NCBI GenBank assembly: GCA_006969905.1
Contig: CP030887.1
Location: forward strand, 2,344,730 to 2,408,729
Origin: Balneolaceae bacterium
GTDB lineage: Bacteria; Bacteroidota; Rhodothermia; Balneolales; Balneolaceae
Length of the DNA: 64,000 bases
Direction: 5' to 3'
Part shown: positions 23,663 through 35,344 of the stretch, one piece after another
Layout: the number at the start of each line of letters is the position of its first letter
Numbering within the stretch: the first letter of the stretch is position 1
Translations under genes and position numbers: made by a program
The notes under the pieces: model-generated
Databases searched by the model: none
Told to the model about the DNA's origin: nothing
What the model saw: only the letters and a program-made list of their open reading frames with translations

Positions 23663-24718
23663 CTAGTTATTGCTATATAACCTTATTACATCTGAATAGC
23701 TCATATCAACCAAAAGTCCTCTTGTATCAAGTTCCTGAAGAAATGAAACAGGCACATTGGAACTACTCAGTGCAATAATACCTGAATAAGAATACTTATT
23801 CATAAAACCAGCCTGATTCAGCTGCTGAATATATTCAACAGGAACACCGCTAGACGAAAGTCCAATAATCGCTGAGTAAGAGAAATCATCCAAAAGGCCT
23901 GCCTGATTAAGTTGGTTTAGATACTCAATACTGACCCCACTGGAAGAAAGTCCTATCAACGCGGAGTAGGAAAAATCGTCCAGGTATCCTGCTTCGTTCA
24001 TCTGATCAAGGTAATCGGTGGCAACTCCGCCATTGAACAAACCAATGATGGCAGAATATGAGAAATTATTTAAGTAGCCGGCATTGTCCATTTCCTGAAG
24101 GTAGCTTATTGTAACTCCGCCATTGTATAAACCTATAATAGCTGAATAAGAGAAATCATTAAGGTATCCCGAGGTACTTAATTGATCCAGATATGCAATA
24201 GGAACCCCTCCGCTATATAGGCCTATGATGGCCGAGTAGGAGAAGGTATTGATATAACCTGCATTCTGTAATTCTGTAAGGTATTCCAGTGGAACCTCAC
24301 TGTTATATAAAGCCTGCAATGCTGTTGTGGAGAATATATTGTTAAATCCCAATTCATTTGCCCGCTGTAAATAAGCTAACTGCGATTCGTTGATACTTAT
24401 TTGCTCTGTACTTGGTGGTAACGGAATAGCTGGAACAGTCGGAGGAGCGGGAGCAACCGTTTGACTTACCCCGGTTCCACCTCCACTAGTGTTAAAAACC
24501 GAAAATGGATTGCTGTTTAAAAACCAGATTAATGGAATTACCAGGAATAGTAATATGGCAATCAGGTTTCGTTTTGTAGTAGGCTGCGGGTGTTGGTATT
24601 CTTCTTCCTGCTCATCTAACGACCTGCCCGTTCCTTGTGCCTGCTCATCAATGTATTCATCCAGATCAAAATCAGGATCGTTATTTTTTAAATCGTTTCT
24701 GAATCGTTGCTGTGCCAT
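23663..24718 (-). CDS. Membrane protein with FDLDEY tail motif and eight 30-residue repeats
   Basis: 351 residues. Cytoplasmic N-terminal tail (about 1-50) with the motif NDPDFDLDEYIDEQAQG, one membrane helix (about 51-67, LIAILLFLVIPLIWFL), a Gly/Pro-rich linker, then repeats of exactly 30 residues to the end. The repeat reads YLxxLxxAGYLxDFSYSAIIGLYxGGVxIx; seven full copies and one partial can be laid out, the first degenerate. Each unit looks like two short helices, so the periplasmic part should be a superhelical rod. The GVP-x-x-Y-[LI]-xx-[LM] rhythm resembles helical repeats found behind some M56/BlaR1-type sensors, but the family is not one I can name. Last gene of a three-gene operon; 11 bases after its neighbour. 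Confidence 0.8.
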   Translation of the reverse strand: MAQQRFRNDLKNNDPDFDLDEYIDEQAQGTGRSLDEQEEEYQHPQPTTKRNLIAILLFLVIPLIWFLNSNPFSVFNTSGGGTGVSQTVAPAPPTVPAIPLPPSTEQISINESQLAYLQRANELGFNNIFSTTALQALYNSEVPLEYLTELQNAGYINTFSYSAIIGLYSGGVPIAYLDQLSTSGYLNDFSYSAIIGLYNGGVTISYLQEMDNAGYLNNFSYSAIIGLFNGGVATDYLDQMNEAGYLDDFSYSALIGLSSSGVSIEYLNQLNQAGLLDDFSYSAIIGLSSSGVPVEYIQQLNQAGFMNKYSYSGIIALSSSNVPVSFLQELDTRGLLVDMSYSDVIRLYSNN

Positions 24719-24729
24719 AATAGTACCTG

Positions 24730-25518
24730 TTATTGATCCTGTTCAAATTTCTTTATGATATCATCTGCACTAAGAGTAGTGCTTTCCGATCCTTTAATCA
24801 TTCTTTCAGCAAATTTAAAAGGTATATTTGCATTGTACATTTTTTGTATATCAGCGTCAGTAAAATCGCTTATAGTTTTTACTGAAGCCGCATATTCCTC
24901 AAATGATGGAAAGACTATTACAGTTATTCCATCTCCAATATTCAAATCTGTAATTGCTTCTAAATCCCTTAGTTCAGCGAGTTCACTTAAAGAGCTGAGC
25001 TCTGCTAAATTTCCTAACTCACCTAATGCACTCAATTTTGACAAAGAACTGAGATCACTAAGATTCTCTAAATTTTCAAGCTGTTCCAGTCCCTCTAAGG
25101 TTTCAGCAAGGCTTGCTTCAACTATAGTATTTATAGACTCAAGCTCTTCTAAGGCTTCTAATTCAGCCGCCAATTTGCCTTCGTTAATAGTTAAAACCTG
25201 AGCCTGATTAGTAATTGAGGTAGGTTTTTCTACTATTATTTGAGGAGTTTGACCTGTGTTAACAACGATGTTTTGATCTTGAGAAGGTTCTCCAAAACCA
25301 AATGCTTCTTTAAAGTTCCATCCATTGCTTCCAAGGAAGACTAAAAATGCAAAAATGCTTACAATGGCCGCATTTTTTAGAAAAGAGCTTCTTTCCTGAG
25401 CGTGTTCTTTAGGAAATTCGCCTGAATTATCAGCTTGAGCATTTGCCGCTATATACTCATCCAGGTCAAATTCCTGGTCTTTATTATGAGAATTATATTT
25501 TTTTTCGTTTATACTCAT
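24730..25518 (-). CDS. Membrane protein with FDLDEY tail motif and leucine-rich periplasmic segment
   Basis: 262 residues. It shares with both neighbours the N-terminal cytoplasmic motif (DQEFDLDEYIAANAQ) and a single membrane helix (about 47-64, NAAIVSIFAFLVFLGSNGW). The periplasmic part is different: about residues 115-190 form a Leu/Glu/Ser-rich stretch with a three- to six-residue rhythm (LENLENLSDLSSLSKL, LGELGNLAELSSLSELAEL), followed by a C-terminal segment with one repeat-like unit (FTDADIQKMYNANIPFKFAERM) that aligns with the 30-residue repeat of the neighbours. The start codon overlaps the upstream gene by 4 bases, so translation is coupled. Function unknown; it probably acts in one complex with its neighbours. 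Confidence 0.8.
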   Translation of the reverse strand: MSINEKKYNSHNKDQEFDLDEYIAANAQADNSGEFPKEHAQERSSFLKNAAIVSIFAFLVFLGSNGWNFKEAFGFGEPSQDQNIVVNTGQTPQIIVEKPTSITNQAQVLTINEGKLAAELEALEELESINTIVEASLAETLEGLEQLENLENLSDLSSLSKLSALGELGNLAELSSLSELAELRDLEAITDLNIGDGITVIVFPSFEEYAASVKTISDFTDADIQKMYNANIPFKFAERMIKGSESTTLSADDIIKKFEQDQ

Positions 25519-26567
25519 TGTCCATCTAATCTATATGCTTCAATTATGGATCTTGATGACATATTGTTTAACAACCCTTTGTCATTGAGTTCCTTCAAAT
25601 AGCTAACAGGAACGTTTGCTTCATGTAGGTTTGAGATGGATGTGCTTCCAAAGTTATCGAGGAAACCGGCTTCATTTATTTCCCGGATATAGCTTGTAGG
25701 TACTTCATTTTGATATAACCTAGTTATCGACGTACTACCAAAATTGTCAAGCACACCAGCCCTACTCAGTTCATTTATATATTCAATAGGGATATTATTT
25801 GTATAGAGGCGGGTGATACTGGTACCTCCGAAATTGTCTAATACTCCTGCCTCTTTAAATTCATTGATATAACTTAACGGAACATTATTTGAATAGAGTT
25901 GAGATATGGATGTACTTCCAAAGTTATCCAGGATCCCGGCCTCTTTGAATTCCGTCAAATAGCTGATAGGTATTTCGTTTTCATAAAGCCGTGTAATCGA
26001 AGTGCCGCCAAAATTATCCAATAATCCTGCATTTGCGATAGATTCGATATAATCCACAGGTACATTATTTCGGTACATAGTTGAGAGAGAGGTACTGCCG
26101 AAATCATCTAAAAGGCCTAACTTATTAAGTTCAGCTAGATAATCGGTGAAGCTGATCCCTAAAGTGGAGTTAAAAGGAGCGTTATTCTGGAAATTCTCAG
26201 GGAAATTGATATCAGGTATTTCAATATCCGGGATTTCAATGTCGGGGATCTCGATATCAGGGATTGTGATTTCAAAGCTTTGTCCACTGCCGCTGCCAAT
26301 CACAAAAGTTTGATCAGCAGGTGAGCCGAATAAAGCATTATAAGCTTGCTTTGGGTTCCAATCATGATACCATAGAAAGGCTATAAATACCATTCCTACA
26401 CCAAGGATTGTGTTTTTTAACCAATAGTTTCTTTCCCTTTTTTCTATGGGTTCATCGCTGTGTTCTGCCCTGTTTGCTTGTTTTGCCTGTTCATCAATGT
26501 ACTCGTCCAAGTCAAAGTCGGGATCGTTGGTACTGAACCTGTTTCTTGTATTTTCCTGATCTGCCAT
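25515..26567 (-). CDS. Membrane protein with FDLDEY tail motif and seven 30-residue repeats
   Basis: 350 residues. Cytoplasmic tail with NDPDFDLDEYIDEQAKQ; membrane helix about 49-66 (LKNTILGVGMVFIAFLWYH); a linker with four tandem IEIPD-type pentads (about 100-122); then seven 30-residue repeats of the form YIxExxxAGxLDNFGSTSITRLYxNxVPxS. The repeats are of the same length and pattern as those at 23663-24718, but with DNFGSTSI where the other has DFSYSAII, so the two proteins are paralogues that each homogenised their own repeats. First gene of the three-gene operon. No catalytic motif is visible; a structural, adhesive or sensor-scaffold role is inference. Confidence 0.8.
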   Translation of the reverse strand: MADQENTRNRFSTNDPDFDLDEYIDEQAKQANRAEHSDEPIEKRERNYWLKNTILGVGMVFIAFLWYHDWNPKQAYNALFGSPADQTFVIGSGSGQSFEITIPDIEIPDIEIPDIEIPDINFPENFQNNAPFNSTLGISFTDYLAELNKLGLLDDFGSTSLSTMYRNNVPVDYIESIANAGLLDNFGGTSITRLYENEIPISYLTEFKEAGILDNFGSTSISQLYSNNVPLSYINEFKEAGVLDNFGGTSITRLYTNNIPIEYINELSRAGVLDNFGSTSITRLYQNEVPTSYIREINEAGFLDNFGSTSISNLHEANVPVSYLKELNDKGLLNNMSSRSIIEAYRLDGQ

Positions 26568-26637: not shown

Positions 26638-26663
26638 AAAAGCCTGTAATAAAACAGGCTTTC
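26638..26663 (-). terminator. Terminator of the VWA protein gene
   Basis: Arms AAGCCTGT / ACAGGCTT with a six-base loop, followed on the minus strand by a T-rich run. It sits just past the stop of the VWA gene and before the repeat-protein operon, so the two are probably separate transcripts. Confidence 0.7.
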
Positions 26664-30745: not shown

Positions 30746-32983
30746 TTGATACGACTTATTCTGGCAGTTTTCTTTCTATTCTACCTGGCTGAAAGTATTT
30801 ATGCTCAGAATCTTTTAGAACTTACAAAATCTGATATGCCAATTATTTTAGATGGCATAATTGATGAGGCTATCTGGGAATTGATTGAACCATTCCCGAT
30901 GACTCAGTTTGAACCTGTCTACAAAGCTGAATTAAGTGAAAAGACTGATATCAGGGTTACTTATGATGATGACTTCTTATATGTGGCAGGCAAAATGTAT
31001 ACTAAAGATGCTTCCACTATTGCTGCCAACAGCCTGTATAGAGATCGCTACAGTGGGGATGATGTTTTTGCTATCATCATAGATCCTTTTAATGATAATC
31101 AGAACGCTCTTCGTTTTTTTACTACTCCAGCCGGAGTTCTTTTTGATCAGGCAATCTCTAATGATGCGAATTCTATAGCCGGATCAAATCCTGTAAACAG
31201 TAGCTGGAATACCTTTTGGGATGTTGCCACAACACGGAATGAGGAAGGCTGGTTTGCGGAGATACGAATCCCCCTTTCGAGCATTGGTTTCCAAAGCAAA
31301 GGTGGTAATGCCGAAATGGGTCTCATAGTATATCGTTGGCTGGCTTATCATAATGAGCGACATATTTTTCCTGCAATACCTCCAAATTGGGATCGGGCTG
31401 AAGTTAAACCTTCACAAGCTCATGATGTCCTAATTTCAGGTGTTCAGGTAGATAAGCCTGTCTATTTTACCCCTTATGGTTTAATGGGCCTCACCAGGCT
31501 TAATGAATTATCGTCAGACTCATCGGCTTATTTTTATGACGATGAAGCCAAGGTAGATATCGGTTTTGACTTAAGATACAACCTCACTTCCAATTTAACG
31601 TTGGATGTTACAGTAAACACTGATTTTGCTCAGGTAGAAAATGATGACCAACAACTTAACCTGACTCGTTTTTCGCTTTTATTCCCGGAAAAGCGACAGT
31701 TCTTTCAGCAACGGTCGGGGCTGTTTGATTTTAACTTCGGAAGGACCCGGGTTTTTTATAGCCGAAGGATAGGCCTGGATGACTCAGGAATACCAGTCAG
31801 AATTCTGGGAGGGGCTCGTTTAACAGGTAGAATCAAAGATTACGACATTGGTTTTATTAATCTTCAAACGGCTAAAAGTGATGATTTGAGTTCGGAGAAT
31901 TTTAATGTTCTCAGGCTAAAGAAGAATGTTCTTAATCCAGCATCATACATAGGTAGTATTTTTACAAGTCGACTTGGTGCGGAAGGAGAGACAAATATTG
32001 TATTCGGGATGGATGGAGACTTTAACATTTTTGGAGATGATTTTTTAGAATTAAGGGCAAGCCAAAGTTATGATAAAACAACACCTGACGAGAGTAGATA
32101 TAATATTGAAGATAATAGCATTTTCAGAGTCACCTGGCAAAGAAGAGCCACTATTGGATTATTCTACAGGTTTTTTGTTAATAGAACCGGAAACAATTTT
32201 GAGCCTGGAATTGGGTTTTATCGAACAATTAATACTTTTGACTATTTTTACCGGTTAGGTTACGGTTGGCTTGGGAAAGAGAGTTCAATATTCAGACAGC
32301 ATTCCGTAAACATTGGCAGCTTTAACATTTTTGAGAATGAGACTTTCAATTTAAGAAGCCGTTTTATTTCGCTCGAATGGAATACAGACTTTAAAGATGC
32401 CGGTTCAGTTGCAGGTGAGTTTAGATATAATCAGGAGCACTTACTTGAAGATGAAGATTTTAAGCTTCTCGGACAAATACACATCCCAGTTGATAACTAT
32501 GATTTTTTTGAAGGCAGAGTTTCTTATTGGTCGCCCGGTAATCTCAGATTTAGAACAAATGTAGGTTTTGAGGTTGGAGAATTCTATGATGGATACAGAA
32601 CTCAACTTAATATTGAACCTCGTTTTGTTGCCAATATCAATCTGGAGCTAAGTGGGAACTATCAAATAACTAATTTAAACTTTGATCCATTGCCAGAGCG
32701 TACCGTTGAGAATTTTACAGCTCATTTAGCTCAGATTCGAGTTCAGTATGCATTTAATAAACAACTTTCTACAAGCACTTTTTTCCAGTATGGCAATGTT
32801 TCCGGATTAACTGGGCTTAATTTTAGATTCAGGTATTTTTTTAGTGAGGGAAGAGATTTATGGCTTGTTGTAAATCAACAAAGCTATAATAGCCGGGATC
32901 AACGATCAGCCGGGTTGCCTGACTTACCAACATTAGAAAGTGGTTCAATTTTGATAAAGTACAACCACACATTTATTTATTAA
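30746..32983 (+). CDS. DUF5916 outer-membrane protein with CBM9-like N-terminal domain, copy 1
   Basis: 745 residues. The start is a TTG at 30746 giving signal peptide MIRLILAVFFLFYLAESIYAQ; no ATG in frame fits. CBM9-like beta sandwich about 22-215 (PIILDGIIDEAIWELIEP, SSWNTFWDVATTRNEEGWFA, EIRIPLSSIGF). Then the DUF5916 region with the signature DFAQVENDDQQLNLTRFSLL and PEKRQFFQQRSGLF, followed by many alternating-strand segments ending in YNHTFIY, a barrel-like C-terminus with terminal aromatic. Expected to be an outer-membrane beta barrel; the substrate is unknown. A paralogue follows after 60 bases. Confidence 0.85.
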   Translation: MIRLILAVFFLFYLAESIYAQNLLELTKSDMPIILDGIIDEAIWELIEPFPMTQFEPVYKAELSEKTDIRVTYDDDFLYVAGKMYTKDASTIAANSLYRDRYSGDDVFAIIIDPFNDNQNALRFFTTPAGVLFDQAISNDANSIAGSNPVNSSWNTFWDVATTRNEEGWFAEIRIPLSSIGFQSKGGNAEMGLIVYRWLAYHNERHIFPAIPPNWDRAEVKPSQAHDVLISGVQVDKPVYFTPYGLMGLTRLNELSSDSSAYFYDDEAKVDIGFDLRYNLTSNLTLDVTVNTDFAQVENDDQQLNLTRFSLLFPEKRQFFQQRSGLFDFNFGRTRVFYSRRIGLDDSGIPVRILGGARLTGRIKDYDIGFINLQTAKSDDLSSENFNVLRLKKNVLNPASYIGSIFTSRLGAEGETNIVFGMDGDFNIFGDDFLELRASQSYDKTTPDESRYNIEDNSIFRVTWQRRATIGLFYRFFVNRTGNNFEPGIGFYRTINTFDYFYRLGYGWLGKESSIFRQHSVNIGSFNIFENETFNLRSRFISLEWNTDFKDAGSVAGEFRYNQEHLLEDEDFKLLGQIHIPVDNYDFFEGRVSYWSPGNLRFRTNVGFEVGEFYDGYRTQLNIEPRFVANINLELSGNYQITNLNFDPLPERTVENFTAHLAQIRVQYAFNKQLSTSTFFQYGNVSGLTGLNFRFRYFFSEGRDLWLVVNQQSYNSRDQRSAGLPDLPTLESGSILIKYNHTFIY

Positions 32984-33043: not shown

Positions 33044-35344
33044 TTGCGCCCGAATAAAACAGGCTGTTTTTTGAAAGTTCGGTTTCTACCTCTACTTCTC
33101 TTTAATCTTTTATTAGTGGGCCCCACGTCTGTACTAAATGCACAAGACGCACCCAAGCTTACAAAGCTATCAACACCTATAACGTTGGATGGTGTTTTGG
33201 AAGAGCCTGAATGGGGAGCTATAGAGTCTTTACCGATGGTTCAGTATGAGCCGGTTTTTCAGGGTACCATGAATGAGCAAACCCGTATCAAAGTGGCTTA
33301 CGACGAGAACTTCCTTTATGTAGCGGGAGAAATGTATACAAAAGATCCTTCTACCATAGCTACTAACTCGTTGGCGAGAGATAAATATAGCAGCGATGAC
33401 GTTTTTGCGATCATAGTTGATGGATTTAATGACAATCAAAACGCGTCCTGGTTTTTTACTAACCCTGATGGTGTTCGCTTTGACTTTGCTGTTTCAAATG
33501 ATGCAGAATCGGGTGGGGGCAGAAGTGCAATCAACAGTAGCTGGAATACATTCTGGGATGTAGAGACTACAAAAACCGATAAAGGTTGGTTTGCCGAGAT
33601 GCGCATTCCTTTTTCCAGCATAGGTGTACAGGTAGAGAATGGGATTACTGATATTGGTTTTATCGTATACAGGTGGATTGCAAATATAAATGAAAGGCAT
33701 ATTTATCCTGATATACCCCCTAATTGGGGATTGGGAAATGCCAAGCCTTCACAGGCCCAGGATGTAGAGTTAAATGGAATAGTATCGAAAAACCCTCTGT
33801 ATTTTACACCCTATGGTCTTTTTGGAAACAACAGGTCGAATAGTTTAAATGCTGATTCTTCAGCATACAGCTTAGACTCAGACATACAAACAGAACTAGG
33901 CTTTGACCTTAGATACAATGTTACAAGCAATTTGACTCTTGATGTAACTGTGAATACAGACTTTGCCCAGGTTGAGGCTGATGACCAGCAATTAAACTTA
34001 TCCCGCTTTTCAATCTTTTTTCCTGAAAAAAGACAGTTTTTTCAGCAACGATCCGGTTTATTCGATTTTACTTTTGGTGGAAACCGGGTGTTTTATAGCC
34101 GAAGGATTGGTTTGGATAACAATGGCAATCCAGTTCGCATACTGGGTGGAGCCAGGTTAACGGGAAGAGTAGGTGGCCTGGATATAGGTTTCCTGAACAT
34201 GCAAACTGCCAATACTGATAACTTTGTTTCTGAAAACTTTGGAGTTCTCCGTTTGCGCCAGCAGGCTATCAATGAAACTTCTTATGTTGGAGGTATACTA
34301 ACCAGCAGGCTTGGCTCGGACGGAGCTTATAATTATGTAGTAGGACTGGATACAGAAATCAATACCTATAAAACTCATTTTGTTGAGTTCAGGGCCTCAC
34401 AATCTATTGATGACGATCTGGATTCAAATCAGAAATATAAACTCGATGAAACTACAGCTTTGAGGTTCTCTTTAAGAAATGACAGCGATAATGGATTTAA
34501 CTACCAGGCAACATATAGTCGTTATGCCAAGAACTATAGTCCTGAGATAGGCTTTATTCGTATTCCGGATGTAAATGAACGGTTTTTGCGCCTTGCTTAT
34601 GGTTGGTTATCAGATGAGGAATCGATATTCAGGAGAAATAGTCTCCGCGTTTTCTACTTTTCGCGCTTCTATAATAATGGTGGAAGTAACCTGCTGAATT
34701 TTAATGACGGCATACAAGACAGAAATATAGACTTTCAATGGAATGGAAGATTTAAGCAATTAGGCGGGCTCAATACCAGCTTACGTTTCGGAAAAGAGAA
34801 TGTACCAATAGGAGATGACTTTGATTTGATTGGGAAAATCAGGATTCCATCGGGAAGTTATAACGATTATAGATTAAGGTTGAATTACCAACTCTCAGAA
34901 GCCTGGAAAGTAGCAGGAAACGCTAATGTATCTTATGGAGCTTTTTATGATGGCGATATTACAGAATACTCTTTAAACCCAAGATTTTTCTTGTCCAGGA
35001 AACTGGAATTGGGAGGGAGTTACCGTTTTACACACCTCAAATTTCCTGAACTGCCCGAACGAATGATTACCGATTTTACGACTCACCTTGTACAGGTAAG
35101 GGGGCAATATTCATTTGACAAAAAAGCTACTATTAGTGCATTTATTCAATACAGCAATTTAGCTGAATTAATAGGGGCTAACCTGAGATTCCGCTATAAT
35201 TTTAGCGAGGGAAGGGATTTTTGGTTGGTACTGAACGAACAAATATATACTAACCTGGATCCAAGAGAAGCCGGGCTACCAAATCTCCCAAGGCTGCAAA
35301 GCGGGTCCATCCTTATAAAGTACAACCATACCTTTGCCTTCTAG
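33044..35344 (+). CDS. DUF5916 outer-membrane protein with CBM9-like N-terminal domain, copy 2
   Basis: 766 residues from a TTG at 33044; a second TTG at 33071 (MKVRFLPLLLFN) would give a tidier signal peptide and may be the true start. Same order as the upstream copy: CBM9-like domain (TLDGVLEEPEWGAIES, SSWNTFWDVETTKTDKGWFA), DUF5916 signature (DFAQVEADDQQLNLSRFSIF, FPEKRQFFQQRSGLFDF), barrel-like strands ending YNHTFAF. The two share long identical stretches and clearly arose by tandem duplication; divergence is strongest in the central and C-terminal strands. Confidence 0.85.
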   Translation: MRPNKTGCFLKVRFLPLLLFNLLLVGPTSVLNAQDAPKLTKLSTPITLDGVLEEPEWGAIESLPMVQYEPVFQGTMNEQTRIKVAYDENFLYVAGEMYTKDPSTIATNSLARDKYSSDDVFAIIVDGFNDNQNASWFFTNPDGVRFDFAVSNDAESGGGRSAINSSWNTFWDVETTKTDKGWFAEMRIPFSSIGVQVENGITDIGFIVYRWIANINERHIYPDIPPNWGLGNAKPSQAQDVELNGIVSKNPLYFTPYGLFGNNRSNSLNADSSAYSLDSDIQTELGFDLRYNVTSNLTLDVTVNTDFAQVEADDQQLNLSRFSIFFPEKRQFFQQRSGLFDFTFGGNRVFYSRRIGLDNNGNPVRILGGARLTGRVGGLDIGFLNMQTANTDNFVSENFGVLRLRQQAINETSYVGGILTSRLGSDGAYNYVVGLDTEINTYKTHFVEFRASQSIDDDLDSNQKYKLDETTALRFSLRNDSDNGFNYQATYSRYAKNYSPEIGFIRIPDVNERFLRLAYGWLSDEESIFRRNSLRVFYFSRFYNNGGSNLLNFNDGIQDRNIDFQWNGRFKQLGGLNTSLRFGKENVPIGDDFDLIGKIRIPSGSYNDYRLRLNYQLSEAWKVAGNANVSYGAFYDGDITEYSLNPRFFLSRKLELGGSYRFTHLKFPELPERMITDFTTHLVQVRGQYSFDKKATISAFIQYSNLAELIGANLRFRYNFSEGRDFWLVLNEQIYTNLDPREAGLPNLPRLQSGSILIKYNHTFAF

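Follow-up and report, generated by a model that had tools for sequence, protein, structure and literature searches.

Three adjacent genes, denoted here A, B and C, in a 64,000-nucleotide stretch of the genome of a Balneolaceae bacterium (the window; contig CP030887.1, positions 2,344,730 to 2,408,729) encode paralogous proteins that are best interpreted, with a probability of about 0.4, as receptors or adaptors with a periplasmic solenoid, all docked through a common tail to one cytoplasmic partner. The anatomy and kinship of these proteins are well supported; as to their function, we infer ligand binding, formation of an A/B/C complex, a shared partner and signalling. Each paralogue would be a single-pass inner-membrane protein with a short acidic tail that stays in the cytoplasm and, borne by a disordered linker rich in proline, an alpha-solenoid of 30-residue two-helix units that extends into the periplasm. 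The ancient unit signature peculiar to each gene type would probably correspond to a binding partner or ligand of its own; the common tail would dock all the paralogues to a single cytoplasmic partner; and B, which is nearly devoid of repeats, could be a short accessory member.

The preliminary description of this locus, as three coupled minus-strand genes that each encode a short tail, a single membrane helix and a portion outside the cytoplasm, holds in these respects. The open reading frames were found at the positions listed in Table 1, with a 4-base overlap between the stop of A and the start of B and a gap of 11 bases between B and C. Each protein contains a single membrane helix that starts at residue 45-51, and further hydrophobic stretches are absent from all three. 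The tail sequence is DPDFDLDEYIDEQ in A and C and DQEFDLDEYIAAN in B, with the F of the motif at residue 17 or 18. Summed over 57 family members, 131 lysines and arginines precede the membrane helix and 28 follow it; this clustering implies an N-in, C-out orientation, with the tail predicted to be cytoplasmic and the remainder of the protein periplasmic. A fourth paralogue (D-type) is encoded elsewhere in the same genome (L002:1465-2340).

Table 1. Positions in the window of the cassette genes, their parts and the adjoining hairpin
Feature	Coordinates	Strand	Remarks
Gene A	25515..26567	-	350 aa; acidic FDLDEY tail, one membrane helix, PDIEIPDIEIP linker, six full DNFGSTSI-type 30-residue units and half-unit caps
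A cytoplasmic tail, residues 1-28, with DFDLDEYIDEQA	26484..26567	-	
A membrane helix, residues 48-66	26370..26426	-	
A six full 30-residue units, residues 154-333	25569..26108	-	
Gene B	24730..25518	-	262 aa; FDLDEY tail, membrane helix, long LxxL-rich helix, one degenerate unit and cap
B cytoplasmic tail, residues 1-28, with EFDLDEYI	25435..25518	-	
B leucine-rich LEQLENLENLSDLSSL helix, residues 116-186	24961..25173	-	low model confidence
B C-terminal degenerate repeat unit and cap, residues 206-261	24736..24903	-	four helices, spacing as in C
Gene C	23663..24718	-	351 aa; FDLDEY tail, membrane helix, proline-rich linker, seven full DFSYSAII-type units and half-unit caps
C cytoplasmic tail, residues 1-28, with DFDLDEYIDEQA	24635..24718	-	
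C membrane helix, residues 51-69	24512..24568	-	
C seven full 30-residue units, residues 128-337	23708..24337	-	predicted alpha-solenoid
Terminator-like hairpin between upstream YfbK-type gene and gene A	26638..26663	-	10-pair stem

The tail conforms to an acidic consensus, FDLDxY[IL]xE[QK]A, and in 34 aligned tails F and D are invariant, with D and L nearly so. Its conservation extends beyond this genome: a tail-only profile matched 27 of the 245 genomes of the class, representing seven Balneolaceae genera, together with one weak outside match, and the Balneolaceae matches fall in reading frames of the cassette family. Within the genome itself, the N-terminal FDLDEY motif is confined to the four paralogues, and the tail was not found in other single-helix proteins encoded there. 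Two members in another family of the order (L053) lack the motif, suggesting that the repeats can work without the tail. Mimicry of the FtsZ C-terminal peptide, which has the core D-x-P-x-F-L-R, was considered and rejected: FtsZ of this genome ends in DDTDQPAFLRKIMD, and the FDLDEY tail contains neither the proline nor the basic residues. A literature search, conducted largely outside the subscription journals, found no papers with FDLDEY, FDLDDY or FDLDSY or on repeat-bearing M56 proteins.

The repeat period is exactly 30 residues in the arrays of both A and C, where residue identity at lag 30 reaches 0.55 and 0.59, respectively, compared to 0.07-0.08 in shuffled sequences (z = 25-27). The preliminary description gave this period correctly and counted seven and eight units by including the C-terminal half unit; the full units number six in A and seven in C, with a half unit at either end of each array. 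Repeats that had been called exact are so in length and not in sequence, given that the units are 46-71% identical at the DNA level, and, besides the two arrays, B too terminates in a single degenerate unit, capped in the same way. The homogenization of the repeats within each gene that had been proposed is not supported as a recent event: orthologues from other genera have the same unit signatures, and, compared between genomes, units at equivalent positions (identity 0.60 for A and 0.58 for C) resemble each other as much as units inside one protein do (0.57 and 0.55). Combined with the low DNA identity, this indicates that the gene-specific signature is old and has been kept by selection. 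The C, A, E and B repeat types recur over several genera at the same cassette position, and the tree of the heads and caps shows strong clustering by type (8 type-label changes versus a mean of 23.3 after shuffling). Hybrids with an A-type array on a C-type membrane head occur in seven other Balneola genomes; their heads are 0.43-0.56 identical to C and 0.16-0.29 to A, whereas their repeats are 0.55-0.62 identical to A. Heads and arrays are thus exchangeable modules. Among the genes A of relatives, hybrids of this kind, with a swap between neighbouring paralogues, can be seen at L036:9491-10414, L039:9958-10983 and L040:8683-9504.

In agreement with the view of the outer parts of A and C as regular helical-repeat arrays, an AlphaFold2 model of C, built with 26 sequences, shows a helical solenoid with two helices per unit (pLDDT 91-97 for residues 111-350), disorder in the proline-rich linker, and, with lower confidence, a pair of short helices in the tail. 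In the model of B, residues 206-261 form four confident helices (pLDDT 72-94) with the spacing of one unit and caps as in C, preceded by a long LxxL helix of low confidence. A Foldseek search with the C model yielded nothing at E < 0.001. The best VIA-align Z score, 6.6 for TAL effectors, and the score of 5.0 for mTERF lie in the background range for helical repeats, which the program calls a common arrangement. These proteins may share with C a superhelix of short helix pairs of about 30-34 residues each and differ from it in being DNA or RNA binders, with identity of at most 11% and a high rmsd, and we do not claim kinship.

A purely structural role fits this anatomy equally well. The solenoids might tie the inner membrane to peptidoglycan or to an outer-membrane protein, or act as spacers, with the tail anchored to a cytoplasmic or membrane-associated structure and without any sensing. 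Regular arrays of variable length (4-8 units per orthologue), the disordered linker, the lack of an enzyme domain and the joint production of several paralogues would all suit such a scaffold, although varying length among orthologues is odd for a fixed spacer. Somewhat unlikely in itself, this scaffold reading is nearly as good as the receptor reading, and what makes us lean to sensing is the kinship of the repeats described below.

Searches of protein families provide no name for these proteins, as the preliminary description had anticipated: no credible match for A, B or C was obtained in Pfam, NCBIfam or PDB. The Pfam and NCBIfam matches of the three proteins are at chance level; none of the named Pfam solenoid repeats (TPR, HEAT, ankyrin, LRR and others) exceeds the curated cut-off in A, B, C or the 26 aligned members; and PDB searches by sequence, with profiles of C and of the related F family (see below) and with one secreted repeat protein, returned nothing credible. 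Beta-APP, the only match over the Pfam cut-off seen among the window proteins, passes on C (23663-24718) by adding up partial matches to the SAIIGLYSGGVP repeats; we dismiss it as fortuitous and note that it could lead automated annotation astray. Nor did the proteins match a model of anti-phage defence, the PADLOC search having returned just a weak partial methyltransferase match in the leucine-rich helix of B. No relatives were found in viral contigs, plasmids or phages.

At E 1e-5, a profile of C-type proteins matched 33 of the 129 genomes in the order, a few of the matches being F family members. Named matches to the family are Balneola, Gracilimonas and other Balneolaceae and Rhodothermia MAGs. 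In Balneolaceae, the cassette comprises between one and four genes, drawn from types E, A, B and C and mostly arranged in this sequence, and occupies one syntenic place, with an IlvA-like/DUF2911 side and, opposite, an ABC-NfeD-SPFH block. D-type paralogues stand alone, away from the cassette (L002, L054), and, like the distant members, occur in varying neighbourhoods. In two genomes, a stand-alone family member lies near genes that look by eye like MotA/MotB (L122:1851-3404 and L055:1870-3392). Elsewhere in the window, two adjacent genes of ~750 codons (30746-32983 and 33044-35344) look like tandem paralogues, and single genes of relatives match one or the other at similar identity.

The hairpin upstream of gene A is compatible with the cassette being a transcription unit of its own, apart from the YfbK-type gene, and is suggestive only, given that 4 terminator-like sites were found in the region versus 3.9 expected. 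In relatives, the YfbK gene is separated or absent, and DUF2911 usually intervenes between YfbK and the cassette. On the other side, the cassette adjoins the ABC-NfeD-SPFH1-SPFH2 block in most of the genera that have it, which would fit an accessory of these neighbours, for example, a component of membrane microdomains. We regard such a role as highly improbable: another genus (L146) has the intact block without the cassette, in some Balneola (L041, L042) other genes part the two, and the ABC gene is convergent. Given the terminator-like site on the YfbK side and the persistence of the SPFH/NfeD/ABC genes without the cassette, neither neighbour looks obligatory. The map of syntenic neighbours in relatives revealed neither a gene for a cytoplasmic partner travelling with the cassette nor a recognizable BlaI/penicillinase repressor gene adjacent to it.

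At the phylum scale, profile matches outside the order fall in the repeat regions of large proteins. One of these, scanned by Pfam, is an M56 peptidase; NCBIfam gives partial BlaR1 matches, below the cut-off, for it and two more, and penicillinase-repressor genes adjoin two of the large proteins. Comparison of the cassette repeats with the M56 repeats by hhalign gave E 3.6e-19, with a reversed control of 1.3e-5 that is not negligible and indicates that helical periodicity contributes to the score. The F family scores E 1.9e-9 against the cassette (reversed control 4.9e-3) and E 8e-24 against M56 (reversed control 0.49). These comparisons support a relationship between the cassette repeats and those on some M56/BlaR1-like proteases in other classes, and the profile-profile scores place the F family between the two. 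From BlaR1 topology, we infer that the M56 repeats are periplasmic. The genome of the window encodes an M56 protein with a repressor-like neighbour elsewhere, without such repeats, and an unnamed F family member outside the window (L107:3083-3793; 236 aa, one membrane helix). In six of eight genomes, the gene directly ahead of F is, by position, a response-regulator gene; Pfam confirmed the receiver domain (a single-domain response regulator) in the window genome. Long repeat arrays on M56/BlaR1-like proteases and on neighbouring secreted proteins are present at L108-L114; the repeat is unnamed in Pfam and NCBIfam for the members scanned.

The kinship of the repeats with M56/BlaR1-like proteins that have BlaI repressors as neighbours, together with the position of F beside a response regulator, leans towards sensing rather than a scaffold. 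The same features, with the single pass and the short conserved cytoplasmic peptide, could also point to regulated intramembrane signalling, in which the tail would sequester a regulator, as anti-sigma factors do, and would itself be released upon cleavage of the periplasmic part; the repeats are common to the protease-sensor class. We consider this mechanism improbable because genes for a sigma factor, a repressor or a protease were not recognized beside the cassette in the neighbourhoods examined, and known anti-sigma domains are far longer than the cassette tail. Taken together, the sensor-type kin, the type-specific repeats and the one invariant tail are best explained by a bank of receptors or adaptors that share a cytoplasmic partner.

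The cassette proteins form a genuine family without a name. Its architecture is clear and combines parts in a new way, with a relationship to a known kind, and a helical repeat that apparently has no name either links the family to M56/BlaR1-like sensors elsewhere in the phylum, in other classes. A bolder proposal, which we hold to be rather unlikely, is a new Balneolaceae envelope receptor system, in which BlaR1-type repeats would be mounted on a bank of single-pass solenoids with type-specific periplasmic specificity and one conserved short linear motif would lead to a single cytoplasmic hub. The invariant tail is a ready bait for the putative cytoplasmic partner shared by several receptors.

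Among known systems, the M56 (BlaR1-like) peptidases with C-terminal repeats resemble the cassette in having arrays of related two-helix units (of the LSADDLIALKALGVTPEYIKSFREAGF type). The cassette proteins are not themselves M56/BlaR1 sensor proteases: neither Pfam nor NCBIfam detects an M56 domain in A, B or C, one membrane helix takes the place of the multi-pass part, a cytoplasmic FDLDEY tail is added, the units have 30 residues rather than 27-29, and no BlaI-type partner gene was recognized among the syntenic neighbours. The F family shares with the cassette a short cytoplasmic tail (KF[KR]NLKNDL in F), one membrane helix and related repeats; unlike the cassette, it is encoded by a single gene, lacks FDLDEY, and has units of mostly 27-28 residues and a conserved RYRISNQ end.
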